From assembly GCA_026399015.1 (NCBI GenBank), contig JAPLRS010000036.1, forward strand, positions 1-64,000: a stretch of 64,000 nucleotides of DNA, read 5' to 3'. This document shows positions 20,833-27,900 of the stretch, in pieces. This DNA is from Methylococcales bacterium (GTDB taxonomy: Bacteria > Pseudomonadota > Gammaproteobacteria > Methylococcales > Methylomonadaceae). The position numbers and the translations under genes were made by a program. Positions within the stretch are counted from its first letter, which is position 1, and each line of letters begins with the position of its first letter. The notes under the pieces were generated by a model. It did no database searches. It was not told where the DNA came from and worked only from the letters and a program-made list of their open reading frames with translations.

Positions 20833-21540
20833 ATGAATCAATTGATCTCAATTGCCTTAGGTGGCGCCTTTGGAGCAGTCCTTCGATTTTTAATGTCTGC
20901 TGGCCTTTACCAATGGTTAGGGCGGGGCTTTCCTTATGGTACTCTAGCGGTCAATTTGGTCGGTTCATTTTTAATTGGTTTGTTAACAGAAGCTTTAATT
21001 TTGCAACGCATTGCCATTGCGGTTGAATATCGGGCCGCTATTTTAGTCGGCTTTATTGGTGCTTTTACGACCTTTTCAACCTTCTCTTTAGAAACCATAT
21101 ACTTGTTAGAGCAGGGTAACTTAACTAAAGCCGGTTTAAATGTTTTATTAAGTGTAATAGGTTGTTTAATCGCAGTGTGGTTAGGTTTGCTGTTAGGGCG
21201 AGCTTTATTTGTTTTTGGTGGTGTAGTGCATTGGGGTGGAATGGCTTTTCCTTATGCCTTATTAATTGTAAATGCGATTGGCGCCTTTTTAATTGGCATG
21301 ATTGCTACTTTGATTTTACAGAAAGTTGAATTAGCTTTGGATTATCGGGCTGCCATTATGGTGCTACTGGTGGGCGTGTATTTAACCCTGTCTGGTTTGT
21401 ATATTATTTTCTTTTTATTAGAACAGGGTTATGCCTTCGAAACCCATGCCAGCACAGTATTGACTACGTTTGTAGTCAATAGTTTTGGGGTGTTGAGTGT
21501 AACGGGGTTCGGTTTGTGGGTCGGTAAGCAGCTTGGGTGA
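20833..21540 (+). CDS. crcB: Double-length CrcB/Fluc-type fluoride channel
   Basis: A 235-residue, all-membrane protein. CrcB is normally about 125 residues with four helices and works as an antiparallel dimer. Here there are two CrcB-like halves and about seven hydrophobic segments. The first half is canonical: GGAFGAVLRF, FPYGTLAVNLVGSFLIG, and VGFIGAFTTFSTFSLET with the Phe/Thr fluoride path. The second half (from about residue 103) repeats FPYALLIVNAIGAFLIG and YRAAIMVLLVG, but its third-helix motif has decayed to VYLTLSGLYII. The long fourth segment seems to be shared between halves, which would invert the second half. Probably a fused pseudo-dimer, function assumed. It is coupled to orn. 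Confidence 0.85.
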   Translation: MNQLISIALGGAFGAVLRFLMSAGLYQWLGRGFPYGTLAVNLVGSFLIGLLTEALILQRIAIAVEYRAAILVGFIGAFTTFSTFSLETIYLLEQGNLTKAGLNVLLSVIGCLIAVWLGLLLGRALFVFGGVVHWGGMAFPYALLIVNAIGAFLIGMIATLILQKVELALDYRAAIMVLLVGVYLTLSGLYIIFFLLEQGYAFETHASTVLTTFVVNSFGVLSVTGFGLWVGKQLG

Positions 21541-21553
21541 AGCAGTTTGTGGA

Positions 21554-22471
21554 TTATTTTAACGGTGCAATAGTGCCGCCTACATTACCCTCTTGGTCTA
21601 TCCATTGATGCGCCAAGTTAAGACTATTTAACCAGTTAGCGCCTTCTGCTTCTTTTAACATTGCGATAGTTGAAGCGCTACCCGCTAATACGCAAAACTC
21701 ACTAACAACGGTTACAGAAGAAAAGTACTGCACAGGCCAACCTGTTTTGGGGTTTAAAATATGCCCATAACGTTTACCATCAATAGTTATATAGCGTTGA
21801 TAATCACCACTGGTAGCCATGCCACCACCAATTAATCCAATTGCGCTAATAATGTCGTCTTCTTTGTTTGGGTGTTGAATACCTACTTGCCAAGCGTTGC
21901 CATCTGGATGGCTACCAATGACTTTAATATCGCCACCTAGATTTATCAAACCATGATCTACACCGAGCTGTTTAGCAATGACAGCAGCTCTGTCTGTTGC
22001 ATACTCTTTAACAATCCCACCAAAATCAAGTTCCATTCCAGCGCGAGGAAAACTGAGTTTGGAGTTTGCCCATTTTACTTTGTCCCAGCCAATATTTTTT
22101 AAAGCTTTTTCAATGTATTTTGGATTAGCAAGAGTAGGTATATCAAGATTAAATTTCCAGGCCTTACGTAAAACACCAGAGGTAATATCAAATAAACCAT
22201 CACTTTGTTCATAACAAGTGACTGCGTAATTTAATAAACTTGCAGTTTCTGGATCAACTTCAATACTTTTGCCATTGGCGGCATGTCTATTGATTTCTGA
22301 AAGAACACTATCTGTTTTATAACGTGAATAACGATTTTCTAATCGGATTACATCGCCAATAACATGGTCAGCAATGTTTTGGGCCTGTTGTTGATCGGTT
22401 GCGTAAAGTTGGATTTCGCAAGGGGAACCCATTGCGGTGAAACGGAAGTTAAATAACGATAAATTGCTCAA
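21554..22471 (-). CDS. apbE: ApbE, FAD:protein FMN transferase
   Basis: A 305-residue enzyme that moves FMN from FAD onto a Thr/Ser of target flavoproteins, Mg2+-dependent. Marks are FRFTAMGSPCEIQLYA, RYSRYKTDSVLSEIN, FDITSGVLRKAW, ELDFGGIVKEYATD, HGLINLGGDIKVIG, the GHILNPKTGWPV motif, and SVTVVSEFCVLAGSAST. The start is TTG at 22471, with AAGG 7-9 bases upstream. A TAA four codons upstream rules out a longer form. The enzyme fold begins at about residue 9, so there is no signal peptide or lipobox, unlike periplasmic ApbE. It is the last gene of a minus-strand operon after the DUF3570 gene, with a hairpin between them. Confidence 0.93.
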   Translation of the reverse strand: MSNLSLFNFRFTAMGSPCEIQLYATDQQQAQNIADHVIGDVIRLENRYSRYKTDSVLSEINRHAANGKSIEVDPETASLLNYAVTCYEQSDGLFDITSGVLRKAWKFNLDIPTLANPKYIEKALKNIGWDKVKWANSKLSFPRAGMELDFGGIVKEYATDRAAVIAKQLGVDHGLINLGGDIKVIGSHPDGNAWQVGIQHPNKEDDIISAIGLIGGGMATSGDYQRYITIDGKRYGHILNPKTGWPVQYFSSVTVVSEFCVLAGSASTIAMLKEAEGANWLNSLNLAHQWIDQEGNVGGTIAPLK

Positions 22472-22495
22472 TTGATCGCCTTATTTTATGTGAAG

Positions 22496-22530
22496 GTTAT
22501 GGTTTTAATTGGTTAGATTAAAACCATAAC
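22496..22530. other. Perfect inverted repeat between DUF3570 gene and apbE
   Basis: A 14-bp perfect stem (GTTATGGTTTTAAT at 22496, its complement at 22517-22530) with a 7-base loop. No T-run follows on the minus strand, so read-through into apbE is likely. It could protect the upstream mRNA or lower apbE expression relative to the DUF3570 gene. Confidence 0.6.
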
Positions 22531-22547
22531 ACATTGTGTTTAACTAA

Positions 22548-23840
22548 TTAAAATTTTACGTTAACTTTTGCTGAGAATAACGAGAAACTATAGTCATCAA
22601 CTGAAGAGCCTTTGCCACCATGCATGGTGTAGTTTTGTTGGCGTTCGTAAAAATCTATACCAAAACCAAGGTTTGCATGATTAAAAACTTCTTTACTCAG
22701 TTGTACACCACCACCGTAAGCACCAAAGCTTGCTAAACGATAGTCAGAGCTGTAATAACCATCTGCTCTAGGTGCATCAAAGAATGGCTGATAAAAATCA
22801 GCTGAACCTTGTGAGTAGTAACGGGCTCTTGGAGTAATTTCCCAACCAGCATAGATAGGTTGTACCCATGCAAATTCAAAGGTATGGGCATTAACGCCCC
22901 AATTATCCACATATAAACGATAATCTAAGTGCATTGCTGCTGAGTTTAATACACCAAAATGCTGTACATAACGTGTCAAGAATGCAAATTGATCACGACT
23001 ATCTGGGCGAGTATCGTGTCTAAAATGACCATAAGAATGAGGAGGTAACCATGTTTTATCATCCCAAGGTACCCAGACTTCCTTATAAGGATCTGATAAG
23101 TAGCCATCATTACGCGTGTAGGTTAAATTGGTTTGTACTAATGCATCTTTGTTGATGATTTGAGTAGCTCCCAATAACCATTGATGAGTGGTTTTATCTC
23201 CACCTACGCCGGGGCGTTTATACATACCATCAGTCATTTGTGGTACTAAATTCATACCAGGAAAATCTGCTGGGTTAATGCAATTGTTGACTGCTTTCTC
23301 TGGATGGCAATGATCCACCGCCCAAACCTGATCAGAAGAAAAGCCATAACCTGTAGCTAATACGGTTCTTTTGTTATTAAATTCATTACGTGAATCAATG
23401 TTAAAAGAGTTTGAATCGTAATCATGTTCACTAGAGCGAGCAACGCCAAGACCTAAAGTACCACCTTGATAGGTATAGGTACCTGCTAATTCTTGAGAAT
23501 CTCTAACTTCTTTAATGGAAGCAGCAGATTTTTGCATTTTTGTTTGACCGGTATTGCCATCTCTATAGTAGTAAATTGGAGAAGCGCCACTGATAACGTC
23601 TTTAACGCCATTAACTTTTAATTTAAATTTATCATTAATGGGTATGTTTGCGGTAGCTTGGTATACTTCAATTTTCATACGATTTCCGCTCTCAGAATAA
23701 CGCGAAAATAGTGTGTTAGCATCAAAGTACTCTGCTTCACCTGCTGCAAATGCTGAGCCGCTGATGCCTGGTAGGGCTAAAGTAGCTAAGGTTAATGCTT
23801 TTAAGGCATTTACGTTTTTGGTTTTTTTAGTTACAGCCAC
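22548..23840 (-). CDS. DUF3570 outer-membrane beta-barrel protein
   Basis: 430 residues from the GTG at 23840; a second GTG at 23846 is in frame but sits on the ribosome site. GGAGG lies 5 bases before 23840, inside the Gly codons at the end of the DUF4266 gene. Residues 1-33 are a signal peptide (LKALTLATLALPGISGSAFA). The rest is barrel-like: alternating, aromatic-rich strands ending in FSAKVNVKF with a terminal Phe. Two motifs like ApbE flavinylation sites stand side by side: DVISGAS (81-87) and DGNTGQT (94-100). Function is unknown. The operon partners (thioredoxin, DUF4266, ApbE) are typical for this family. Flavinylation is my inference. Confidence 0.85.
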   Translation of the reverse strand: MAVTKKTKNVNALKALTLATLALPGISGSAFAAGEAEYFDANTLFSRYSESGNRMKIEVYQATANIPINDKFKLKVNGVKDVISGASPIYYYRDGNTGQTKMQKSAASIKEVRDSQELAGTYTYQGGTLGLGVARSSEHDYDSNSFNIDSRNEFNNKRTVLATGYGFSSDQVWAVDHCHPEKAVNNCINPADFPGMNLVPQMTDGMYKRPGVGGDKTTHQWLLGATQIINKDALVQTNLTYTRNDGYLSDPYKEVWVPWDDKTWLPPHSYGHFRHDTRPDSRDQFAFLTRYVQHFGVLNSAAMHLDYRLYVDNWGVNAHTFEFAWVQPIYAGWEITPRARYYSQGSADFYQPFFDAPRADGYYSSDYRLASFGAYGGGVQLSKEVFNHANLGFGIDFYERQQNYTMHGGKGSSVDDYSFSLFSAKVNVKF

Positions 23841-24051
23841 AACCACCTCCGCCTACGCCGTAACCACCCGATGATGATTCTTTTGAGCTAAATGTATGCT
23901 TCATAATAGCTGAATCCAATTCATTAGTTTCTAAAGCCATTTGGGGCTTGGCTAAATTACCTCTTTCCCAAGGGGAAAGTTTTGCTGCACAACCCATCAG
24001 TAAACTACTGATGATTAGGCAACTTAATAACATTAAGTTGGGTAGACGCAT
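23827..24051 (-). CDS. DUF4266 small lipoprotein with Cys tail
   Basis: A 74-residue protein. The signal II peptide ends in SSLLMGC, so lipid-modified Cys21. A conserved core LSPWERGNLAKPQMA follows. The C-terminus is Gly/Ser-rich and ends GGYGVGGGGCGCN, with the C-G-C pair one residue from the end. The last codons contain the ribosome site of the overlapping DUF3570 gene. It starts 2 bases after the thioredoxin stop, so the genes are translationally linked. Function is unknown. The tail could bind a metal or form a disulfide handled by the thioredoxin next door (inference). Confidence 0.87.
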   Translation of the reverse strand: MRLPNLMLLSCLIISSLLMGCAAKLSPWERGNLAKPQMALETNELDSAIMKHTFSSKESSSGGYGVGGGGCGCN

Positions 24052-24053
24052 AT

Positions 24054-24539
24054 TTACTCCGCTAATAATTTTTCTACTTCTGCACGAATCACCGCCTTTT
24101 CTTCGGCATGGAAGCCTAAGTTAATGCGTCTAATTTTGCCCTTACGGTCGATTAAGTAAGAAGATGGCATAGCAACCACACCAAAAGCAGCGGGACATTC
24201 TCCATTCGGATTAACTGCAACAGTAAAATTAACTTTGTGTTTATCTAGAAAGTTTTTGGCATCATCTCTTGATTCGTCAAGATTGATAGCAATAACTTCA
24301 AAGTTTTTAGCTTTAAGTTGAGTGTTAATTTCTTCTAAGAAAGGCATAGATTGTTCACAAGGACCACACCAAGACGCCCAGAAATCAACATAAGTAACTT
24401 TACCTGGCTTAATAAGTTGTACGGGAGCCGCGTCAGAGAATTGTTGAAGATCGCATTTTGGTGCTTCAGCGCCAACTTCTAAAGCTAGAGCGAAAGGTGA
24501 AAGTGCAGAAAGTAAAATAGCAGGAAGTATTTTTTTCAT
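24054..24539 (-). CDS. TlpA-like periplasmic thioredoxin
   Basis: 161 residues with a signal peptide (MKKILPAILLSALSPFALAL) and a thioredoxin/AhpC-TSA fold. The active site is WCGPC (residues 57-61) in VDFWASWCGPCEQSMPFL. The cis-Pro is in VVAMPSSYLIDRKGKI. Extra cysteines occur at EAPKCDL and NGECPAAF. It is the first gene of the operon with DUF4266, DUF3570 and ApbE, so it probably keeps a partner's cysteines reduced. AAAAAA around the start gives no clear ribosome site. Confidence 0.9.
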   Translation of the reverse strand: MKKILPAILLSALSPFALALEVGAEAPKCDLQQFSDAAPVQLIKPGKVTYVDFWASWCGPCEQSMPFLEEINTQLKAKNFEVIAINLDESRDDAKNFLDKHKVNFTVAVNPNGECPAAFGVVAMPSSYLIDRKGKIRRINLGFHAEEKAVIRAEVEKLLAE

Positions 24540-24902: not shown

Positions 24903-27900
24903 ATGGCAACAACTCCATCCACTGCTAGTGACACAATTACGCCCTCGCAAAATCAGGTTAATGGAAATTTAGCTTGGGATGGATTGGCTGGTGTAGATGT
25001 TTTCAACGTTGCTAATGGCAATGTTAGAAACTTTTTTACTACATTTAAAGTAACTTATCAAGCTAATGGAACTGCTGTATTTACATCCGCCGCAGGTGGG
25101 GCTAGTGGTTTTAAACTTACTAACTTTGAAAAGCTGACTTATTTAGCTAATGGTGTCTCCACTACAATGGATTTAGCGATTTACGTAACGTCTGTAAGTC
25201 CTGTAGCTACTGTGCCAACTAACAGTGATATTGTTATTACGTTTAATGAAACAATCAAAGCCGGTACTGGGAATGCGGTAATACATTCTGGTACTGTTGG
25301 CGGAACAGCAGTTTTTACTGCGGCTGCGGCAAGTTTAATTTATTCTGGAAATACTTTAACCATTAGGCCAACCAGTCCATTGGCTGCAAATACACATTAT
25401 TTTGTTACCTTGGATAAAGGCTTAGTTGTCAGTGGTGCTGGAACTTCTACTCAGCACGTGTTTATGGGTAATCTGTCTTCTACAAATACAACAGCGGCTA
25501 ACGGATATGATTTTACAACATCAGCTGCAATTCCAACTGGCGTTACCGTGGCAACATTTTTGTTAACACCCGCAGTAGCGCAAGCAATTGCTGATTCTAG
25601 TGCAAATGTTGCCGCAAAATTAGATCTACTCCAAACTAATCTGGCTAAAGTAACCAGCATCTCTTTGACAGATGCATCTATTCCTTTAACCATAAGTGCT
25701 GGACAAGTGACATCTGATGCAGGAATTCTGGCTAAATTAGGTACATATTCATTAGCTATCTCTGATAGCAGCGCAAATATTGCAGCTAACATTGACGCGC
25801 TTCAAGGTGCTTTAGCTAAAATCACCTCAATTACGCAAACCGGAACTCCAGCTGCTTTAGCAATAACAGCGACACAGTTAGCAAATGATGCGGGTGCTTT
25901 AGGTTTAATTACTGGTGTTTACACGTTAGCTGTATCAGGTGTTACGACAACTAATTTATCTTCTATTATAGCGAATACAAAAGTCGCATCAGTTGCAATT
26001 ACTGATACAAGTGCAAATATTGCTGCTAATTTAAATGCTTTAGAAACAAATTACCTCAAAATAGGTACGCTTACACAAAGTGATTCAGGGGTAGCTTTAA
26101 CTATCACTGCAACTCAACTAGGTGCAGATACACATGCATTGGCAAAATTAAATAATGGTGCTTATACATTAAATGTTACAGGTGTTTTGGCTGCAAATGC
26201 CGGCACGGTTTTATTAGATGCGCATGTGGCGTCAATCACTGTTTCAGACAGTAGTGCAAATATTGCTGCTAATTTAAATGCTTTAGAAACAAATTACCTC
26301 AAAATAGGTACGCTTACACAAACCAATACAGGAACAGCTTTAACAATTAGTGCTGCCCAGTTAAGTGCTGACACACATGCTTTAGCTAAACTAAACAATG
26401 GTACTTACACATTAAATGTTACAGGTGTTTTGGCTGCAAATGCCGGCACGGTTTTATCAAATGCGCATGTGGCGTCAATCACTGTTTCAGACAGTAGTGC
26501 AAATATTGCTGCTAATTTAAATGCTTTAGAAACAAATTACCTCAAAATAAGTACGCTTACACAAAGTGATTCAGGCGCAGCATTATCAATAACTGCAGGC
26601 CAGTTAAGTTCTGACACACATGCTTTAGCTAAACTAAACAATGGTACTTACACATTAAATGTTACAGGTGTTTTGGCTGCAAATGTCGGCACGGTTTTAT
26701 TAAATGCGCATGTGGCGTCAATTACTGTTTCAGACAGTAGTGCAAATATTGCTGCTAATTTAAATGCTTTAGAAACGAATTACCTCAAATTAAGTACGCT
26801 TACACAAACTGATTCAGGTATTGCATTAACAATCACTGCTGCCCAACTAAGTGCTGATACACATGCTTTAGCTAAACTAAACGGTGGTACTTACACATTA
26901 AATGTTACAGGTGTTTTGGCTGCAAATGCTGGCACGGTTTTATCAGATCCGCATGTTTCTTCAATTTCTATAACAGATTCGAGTGCAAATTTATCGTTAA
27001 CTGCAAATTTAGATTTACTAAAAACTAATCTGGCAAATATTAGTTCTTTCACTTTTAGTGATGTGGCTCAAATTTCTATTACAAGTGCACAGCAAACAAC
27101 CTATGCAGAAGTTTTAACTAAGATTGCTCAAACTAACCCGTCTTATAGTTTAGTTTTAACTGATTTGGCAACAGATATTGCGCATGCTATCTTTACTGGG
27201 GCAGCGGTAAATATTTTAGATACGGCAACTAATGTTTCGAATAGTTTGGACACATTACAAGCTAATAAATTAAAAATTAATACAGTAGCAACCAGTGATG
27301 CTTTACCAATAACTGTTACTGAGGCTCAAATAACAACTGACGCTGATATTTTAAGTAAAATTAATGGTGGTAATTACACTTTAAACGTATCGAATGTGAG
27401 TTCAGATCCATTAAGTTTAGCAAGTCTGTTGGGCAATGTTCATGTTACTTCATTGGATGTTACAGATACCCCGGCTAATATTTCTGCAAACTTAGATGCA
27501 TTGCAAGCAAATAATTCTAAGATAGGCACTATCAATATTGCTTATGGAAGTGGACCACATACTCCAATTAGTTTAACAGCGGCTCAAATAGCAAATGATG
27601 GTGATGTAATACAGAAAATAGTTGGTCTTAATAATCCGCTGTCAGTCCCTTTTACTGTAACTGGTAATACTTCTAGTATAGGTCAAAACTTTACTGCATT
27701 GAATCAGTACGTAAACAATATTTCTACTATTGTACGGTCTGATGTTAAGTCTATTTTGTCTATCACTAACGATCAATTTAAAAATGATACCGCACTATTA
27801 AATAAGTTAGGCACAAAATACAGCGTATCAATTACAGATGCAGTGGCCGATAAAGTTACTTTAGATGCTTTGTTAAAAACGCTTCATGTGGTATCAGCTA

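Follow-up and report, generated by a model that had tools for sequence, protein, structure and literature searches.

Proteins of the DUF3570 family are modified with flavin mononucleotide (FMN) by a neighbouring ApbE, an FAD:protein FMN transferase, at [ST]GA[ST] sites, as reported by Meheust et al. 2021 (PMC8238504, of which part of the text was available). When the Chlorobium luteolum pair was co-expressed, flavinylation was lost only with the serines of both [ST]GA[ST] motifs replaced. The cloning of the partners for expression in E. coli is described as signal-peptide-truncated, and the DUF3570 protein was recovered mostly in the pellet. Protein purified from guanidine still carried flavin, which makes modification of an insoluble barrel within the cytosol seem possible. 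Here we describe a cluster of this kind in a 64,000-nucleotide stretch of a Methylococcales bacterium (Gammaproteobacteria, family Methylomonadaceae; GCA_026399015.1, contig JAPLRS010000036.1, positions 1 to 64,000), referred to as the window. On balance, we think that its operon encodes a redox outer-membrane barrel to which FMN would be attached by a dedicated cytosolic ApbE before export.

In our literature search, DUF3570 or DUF4266 was named in PMC8238504 only. The first-pass annotation had proposed an uncharacterised outer-membrane protein with covalent FMN; an outer-membrane flavoprotein made by the linked ApbE remains the best reading, but the protein is not uncharacterised, and the idea of a flavinylated DUF3570 is already known because it was published in that study. 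The published clusters contain the same four genes with [ST]GA[ST] in DUF3570 (316 such clusters lack DsbD) and differ from the window at the second site, which is SAAS here; in the available text the loss of the ApbE leader, the changed active site and the membrane side of the sites are not treated. The cytosolic ApbE of Klebsiella pneumoniae (review PMC12052999, available in part) likewise lacks a signal peptide, the sequences not having been compared, and its target is a soluble fumarate reductase that stays cytosolic, whereas the window target would go to the outer membrane. The periplasmic ApbE/Ftp enzymes paired with NqrC or RnfG belong to the same family and share the active-site Ser and His and the motif chemistry with the window ApbE, but they have a leader and a metal-site Asp (D280 in E. 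coli), both of which the window ApbE lacks. In MtrCAB conduits a barrel is proposed to carry electrons outwards, and the Mtr chain 6r2q_B is among many barrel matches of DUF3570; the window operon, however, has no visible haem protein, and the likeness is one of barrels generally, with no evidence of kinship. No report of a cytosolic ApbE acting on an exported target was found in a limited literature search, part of it by title.

The genes for the thioredoxin-like protein, DUF4266, DUF3570 and ApbE follow one another in this order in one run on the minus strand. The TlpA/ResA-like thioredoxin (24054..24539; 161 amino acids) matches Pfam PF08534 (E 4.1e-26), DUF4266 (23827..24051; 74 amino acids) matches PF14086 (E 2.9e-22), DUF3570 (22548..23846; 432 amino acids) matches PF12094 (E 2.4e-91) and ApbE (21554..22471; 305 amino acids, TTG start) matches PF02424 (E 2e-76), all above their own Pfam cut-offs. 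These matches and the four same-strand reading frames bear out the earlier proposal that the genes form one operon. The gap between ApbE and DUF3570 is 76 nt and apbE thus lies in the cluster; the end of DUF4266 and the start of DUF3570 overlap by 20 nt (23827..23846, minus strand), as read from the sequence. In an NCBIfam scan the thioredoxin-like protein matched the ResA subfamily below the cut-off and the DUF3570 and DUF4266 proteins had no match. No dsbD was found among the six window proteins scanned with Pfam, a genome-wide search for dsbD not having been made.

A leaderless, active-site-altered ApbE branch appears, judging from sequence, to be the rule for the DUF3570 system in two phyla, which is new here. 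In the window, an in-frame TAA lies 9 nt upstream of the TTG start and the conserved MGSPC begins at residue 14, which leaves no room for a signal peptide; neither the N-terminal leader nor the lipobox of secreted ApbE/Ftp enzymes is present. The first-pass annotation had noted the missing signal peptide correctly and had counted it as an argument against its reading; leaderlessness is general to the DUF3570-linked ApbE clade. A hydrophobic leader is absent from 83 of 84 linked genes, the residues ahead of M-G-S-P-C being few or too weakly hydrophobic, where linked means apbE within 3 kb of DUF3570 on either strand (8 of 86 rows are more than 600 nt away). The 84 genes correspond to 86 rows, with L249/L259 and L250/L261 being duplicate rows of the same genes, and they originate from Methylococcales, other Gammaproteobacteria, other Pseudomonadota, Myxococcota and two plasmids. 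The sole exception is from Hymenobacter (Bacteroidota); a search for further Bacteroidota gave only two Hymenobacter plasmid records, one of which was examined. Sequences shorter than 240 amino acids, scoring below 60 bits, cut at the start of the locus or identical over the last 200 residues were excluded from the leader counts; L054 lies above the hydrophobicity threshold through a misplaced motif (its leader region is otherwise at 0.34) and L121 reaches 1.6 via an upstream start taken as spurious. Among ApbE rows unlinked to or distant from DUF3570, which are mostly best-scoring loci and not a random draw, 35 of 41 have a hydrophobic leader (Kyte-Doolittle value of 1.7 or more). The six without one are a clade member 3.1 kb from DUF3570 pieces (L195), a row with a short reading-frame start (L207) and four distant ApbEs (L242, L243, L244 and L246).

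In a tree built from the last 330 residues, 85 linked rows and one unassigned row form one clade (SH-aLRT 91, quick method) with Hymenobacter outside; the Chlorobium luteolum ApbE was not among the rows of the tree or of the active-site alignment, which covers the same residues. Gly occupies the place of E. coli D280 in all 82 linked rows with the column filled, and Glu occupies the place of E. coli G170 (the Gly of 'KGY') in 83 of 84, the exception again being Hymenobacter, whose linked ApbE has a leader and the canonical Gly and whose second piece retains Asp. Among the 35 unlinked rows, the D280 place is Asp or Glu (34 of 34 filled) and the G170 place is Gly (35 of 35). The window ApbE carries the marks of the clade (Glu156 and Gly264) and retains the active-site Ser221 and His237; its PF02424 domain thus has the Ser/His pair and, by alignment, Gly264 in place of the metal-site/triad Asp. 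In E. coli Ftp, metal site 1 is liganded by D280 and site 2 by E169, the residue next to G170 (PMC4767422, available in part). We take D280 to be the triad Asp301/Asp285 of review PMC12052999, as mapped by alignments.

Site 1 of DUF3570, DVISGAS (23580..23600, minus strand), lies at the end of barrel strand 3 and contains the FMN acceptor Ser89 predicted from the conserved column and the model. It corresponds to residues 83-89 counting from the first GTG and to residues 81-87, where the first-pass annotation had placed a flavinylation-like motif, counting from the second; the motif is present and its column is conserved. The acceptor column is Ser/Thr in 41 of 41 aligned short-form DUF3570 proteins, and 31 of the 41 have the strict [DE]xx[ST]GA[ST]. 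Among 165 unique DUF3570 proteins, 145 have [DE]-x-x-[STGA]-G-A-[ST] at this column and 121 the strict [ST] form, with Ser/Thr at the acceptor place in 159 and a gap in 4. This conservation across the aligned proteins takes site 1 beyond a chance match, and the window protein combines the PF12094 domain with the first [ST]GA[ST] site of flavinylated DUF3570 proteins. Site 1 is very probably flavinylated. As a separate observation, two genomes of the family (L038-L043) have 15 and 9 DUF3570 matches, some in tandem with DUF4266, and several of these copies read DTWGGATP at site 1.

The second motif of the first-pass annotation, DGNTGQT (residues 96-102; 23541..23561, minus strand), is encoded, yet it lies in a variable loop and is rejected as a second site since [DE]xx[ST]Gx[ST] occurs there in 1 of the 41 aligned short-form proteins, the window's own. 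The second-SGAS column of relatives (QVLSGASI-like) reads K-SAAS-I in the window, a degenerate, Gly-to-Ala form of SGAS at the start of barrel strand 4 (SAAS, residues 107-110; 23517..23528, minus strand), so a second [ST]GA[ST] is missing at the aligned place. This assignment comes from the model and from alignment with the nearest relatives (L082, L083 and L084), which read TGAS at the first site and SGAS at the second. By regular expression in 182 DUF3570 proteins (18 of them without a site 1 to start from), site 2 is [ST]GA[ST] in 47 short and 36 long proteins, [ST][AS]A[ST] in 15 short and 15 long, [GA]GA[ST] in 11 long, and none of these forms in 26 short and 14 long; SAAS/SSAS-like sites are not unique to the window. 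Q-x-x-[ST]-G-A-[ST] makes up 37 of the 47 short-form second motifs and 3 of the 36 long-form ones.

The AlphaFold model of DUF3570 is a closed 16-strand barrel (predicted local distance difference test score, pLDDT, 88.8; predicted template modelling score 0.84). The N terminus has a Sec-like signal, by eye, and the last residue is Phe, as in outer-membrane beta-barrels; matches in the Protein Data Bank are to barrels in general, and no closer family is claimed. All five long loops are found on the odd-to-even side; each even-to-odd connection has 2-5 residues, and both termini are on this latter side. The two sites fall at mature-chain positions 52-55 and 73-76, either side of the outward loop 54-76, and from the model both are likely to be on the cell-surface side. 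Twin-arginine export of DUF3570 was considered and is unsupported, a twin-arginine-like stretch being seen in 1 of 92 linked proteins.

Methylomonas-type relatives have some 350 or more extra residues inside the loop between the two sites. A large insert between site 1 and strand 4 was observed in Methylomonas/Methylocaldum-type DUF3570 proteins (L034:1812-5507, L124:5504-8992, L151:5774-9025 and L159:5375-9070). The Methylomonas form L124 was modelled after being cut to 761 residues (mean pLDDT 67.1, with the barrel part alone usable), and the insert appears, at low confidence, as a helical stalk of two long helices with a beta-rich head; a 357-residue stretch of the Methylomonas-form protein extending into the insert had no Pfam match. 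Long DUF3570 proteins of about 850-1000 amino acids (L052:6139-8817, which is the second DUF3570 of the window genome, and most of L005-L033) have a Met/His-rich C-terminal second half, which had no Pfam match in the two long proteins scanned (L052 and L039).

The window-type ApbE follows DUF3570 across the genomes of the family. There it is defined by at least 46% identity (other full matches reach at most 35%), and 43 of the 45 genomes with DUF3570 have it, two of them as fragments only (G031 and G040), against none of the 16 that lack DUF3570 (Fisher 7.5e-13, kinship not corrected); G018 combines 15 DUF3570 matches with a single window-type ApbE. Of 398 genomes sampled from the phylum, 22 have a window-type ApbE (E below 1e-50) and 17 of those have DUF3570, and this sample rules out that the ApbE clade and DUF3570 always pair one to one. 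Among the other 12 DUF3570 genomes, five (G094, G157, G158, G241 and G312) have a linked, leaderless and more divergent ApbE. The remaining seven are Pseudomonadota genomes (G067, G075, G246, G402, G426, G428 and G061) in which the closest ApbE is not above 36% identity to the window's.

The first-pass annotation had asked whether the motif is conserved only beside apbE. In 182 DUF3570 proteins (those below 60 bits or 330 amino acids were removed), 88 of 100 apbE-linked proteins have the strict motif within their first 320 residues, as do 29 of 44 unlinked proteins whose flanks reach 4 kb or more and 27 of 38 unlinked proteins with short flanks. It is commoner in linked proteins but is kept in many unlinked ones, and exclusivity to apbE neighbourhoods is rejected as an absolute rule; the association is real but not absolute, because unlinked and Myxococcota copies often keep the strict motif. 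Some unlinked copies come from genomes, that of the window among them, with the same apbE type at another place. In a Pseudomonadota lineage that has thioredoxin, DUF4266 and DUF3570 and no adjacent apbE (L180, L181, L185 and L187-L192), 6 of 9 loci have SSAS/SNAS, and at three of the nine the genome has a second, apbE-linked DUF3570. In five of these loci (L180, L181, L188, L190 and L192) the neighbours were observed to include TPR, SH3 and a 900-amino-acid PD40/HZS_alpha-like protein (Pfam was run on L180 only).

The five phylum genomes with a clade ApbE and no DUF3570 match point to a different partner. All five ApbEs carry the Glu and Gly of the clade, and in three genomes (G251, G160 and G089) apbE adjoins a gene for a small EF-hand protein that lacks a leader and has PQVMTGAS, PQAWSGAS or PQAMTGAS close to the N terminus. 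EF-hand proteins without a leader that carry PQ[AV][MWIV][ST]GAS (L338:6367-6780, L339:4688-5023, L340:4140-4541, L345, L351 and L353) lie beside, or in the same genome as, a clade ApbE where DUF3570 is absent. A search of the 398 genomes gave strong matches (E below 1e-20) only in G089, G149, G160 and G251, four of the five; in G149 the matches are on contigs other than that of apbE, where a 713-amino-acid array lacks the motif, and the fifth genome (G205) is fragmented and belongs to the same genus as G149. Weaker matches were found in G424, G447, G438 and G395, the first three without the motif. The EF-hand/ApbE association among the 369 genomes without DUF3570 has a Fisher value of 6.6e-9, kinship not corrected. 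Replication in the class of G160 (78 genomes) failed, returning the same two genomes again (G160 and G089). A literature search for ApbE, EF-hand and flavinylation gave one paper, on a Treponema lipoprotein, whose entry mentions ApbE with flavinylation and EF-hand once each. We regard these proteins with PQxx[ST]GAS as candidate new ApbE substrates.

The other two proteins of the operon bear on electron delivery. The thioredoxin-like protein has WCGPC and a signal peptide-like N terminus, and DUF4266 has a lipobox-like LLMGC and a Gly-rich tail to a terminal CGCN (CGC at 23833-23841); 153 of 155 DUF4266 copies adjacent to DUF3570 have a CxC end. Together, the WCGPC protein and the CxC ends suggest thiol-based electron delivery, much as proposed in PMC8238504, and a thiol relay from the thioredoxin-like protein and DUF4266 to the barrel is a tentative proposal. 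Start codons of DUF3570 are visible, on reading the sequence, solely within the Gly/Cys-tail codons of DUF4266. With a rough script, 63 of the 155 DUF4266-DUF3570 pairs showed no start codon from the DUF4266 stop to 70 codons before site 1. Next to the operon, a 235-amino-acid protein with two CrcB stretches (20833-21540) is probably a tandem-fused fluoride channel. A 1367-amino-acid Big_5 protein (24903-29006) has a repeat in four copies at 243-nt spacing (25966-26994), and a 300-amino-acid relative (29242-30144) has its C-terminal end in common with it, by eye.

Other explanations of the locus have to be weighed. DUF3570 may be flavinylated in the periplasm by the other, lipoprotein ApbE of the genome, with the leaderless ApbE otherwise employed, which we consider unlikely. 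The window genome does have a second ApbE with a lipoprotein-like leader (L004/L053), the Hymenobacter DUF3570-linked ApbE has a leader and the canonical Gly and Asp, and the published constructs, as described in the available text of PMC8238504, are signal-peptide-truncated. However, a less similar ApbE (at most 35% identity) is present in 61 of 61 family genomes regardless of DUF3570 (the leader was checked in part of them), it is the window-type ApbE that tracks DUF3570 and often adjoins its gene, and the Hymenobacter DUF3570 has SSAS instead of SGAS. That DxxSGAS is a structural turn of the barrel, unmodified here, is quite improbable. A DxxSxAS-like stretch persists in genomes without a window-type ApbE (seven Pseudomonadota and eight Myxococcota, with the strict motif kept in 6 of the 8 Myxococcota), but there is direct published evidence of flavinylation for a homologue, and the site-1 column in the seven Pseudomonadota genomes is SGAS in 1 and SSAS, SNAS or TAAS in 6 (one of the six, G061, has an additional DTLSGAS 18 residues on), a loss of Gly that is expected under relaxed selection on flavinylation. 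It is more improbable still that the main target is another, cytosolic protein and DUF3570 merely a neighbour: the same ApbE clade is found elsewhere beside the leaderless EF-hand proteins, yet the window genome (86% complete) has no match to the EF-hand protein at E 0.001 and within the family ApbE follows DUF3570.

Several points weigh against the reading preferred here. The last residue of site 1 is Ser, a poorer final motif residue for ApbE than Thr (PMC12052999), and site 2 may be weak since a Gly-to-Ala change of the motif in a fumarate reductase lowered the degree of flavinylation (~50%; PMC12052999). Characterised ApbEs have a metal-site/triad Asp that is missing from the clade, so that its activity is not guaranteed. 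Leaders were judged by the hydrophobicity of the stretch before M-G-S-P-C instead of by SignalP. Two family genomes (G056 and G059; 82 and 88% complete) have DUF3570 without a window-type ApbE. Nor is the pairing exclusive in the other direction, as 5 of the 22 phylum genomes with a window-type ApbE lack a DUF3570 match.

With these points in mind, flavinylation by the leaderless ApbE probably takes place in the cytosol, and we infer its timing, the export with flavin and the electron flow as follows. The cytosolic ApbE would place FMN on Ser89 of the DUF3570 precursor while this is unfolded and perhaps, less efficiently, on Ser110 of SAAS. The flavinylated precursor would then pass Sec and BAM, which would leave the FMN on the cell-surface side, at the outer loop joining strands 3 and 4. 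Periplasmic electrons may reach the barrel via the thioredoxin-like protein and the CxC-tailed lipoprotein DUF4266. In its widest form the proposal is that an ApbE subfamily lacking a leader, its metal site rebuilt by an Asp-to-Gly change and a Gly-to-Glu change beside the Lys/Glu position of site 2, flavinylates exported outer-membrane barrels within the cell, that the FMN is threaded via SecYEG and BAM to the surface, and that the first position of the motif may be Q as well as D (Q-x-x-[ST]-G-A-S), with leaderless EF-hand proteins as second substrates; acceptance of Q would explain site 2 of DUF3570 and reveal the EF-hand substrate family. As a whole, this wider proposal has a little less than an even chance of being right.

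What is new here is the leaderless, altered ApbE branch, the correction of the second site, the prediction that both sites lie at the surface, and the EF-hand lead, which offers a directly testable candidate for a new ApbE substrate. In the sources as available, exported enzymes are paired with exported ApbE targets and cytosolic enzymes with cytosolic ones; if the proposal is true, the DUF3570 pairing crosses the two, in Pseudomonadota and Myxococcota alike, and no periplasmic FAD would be needed. Sec and BAM would then handle a bulky covalent cofactor, and methanotrophs and other bacteria would gain a haem-free, surface-exposed redox site.

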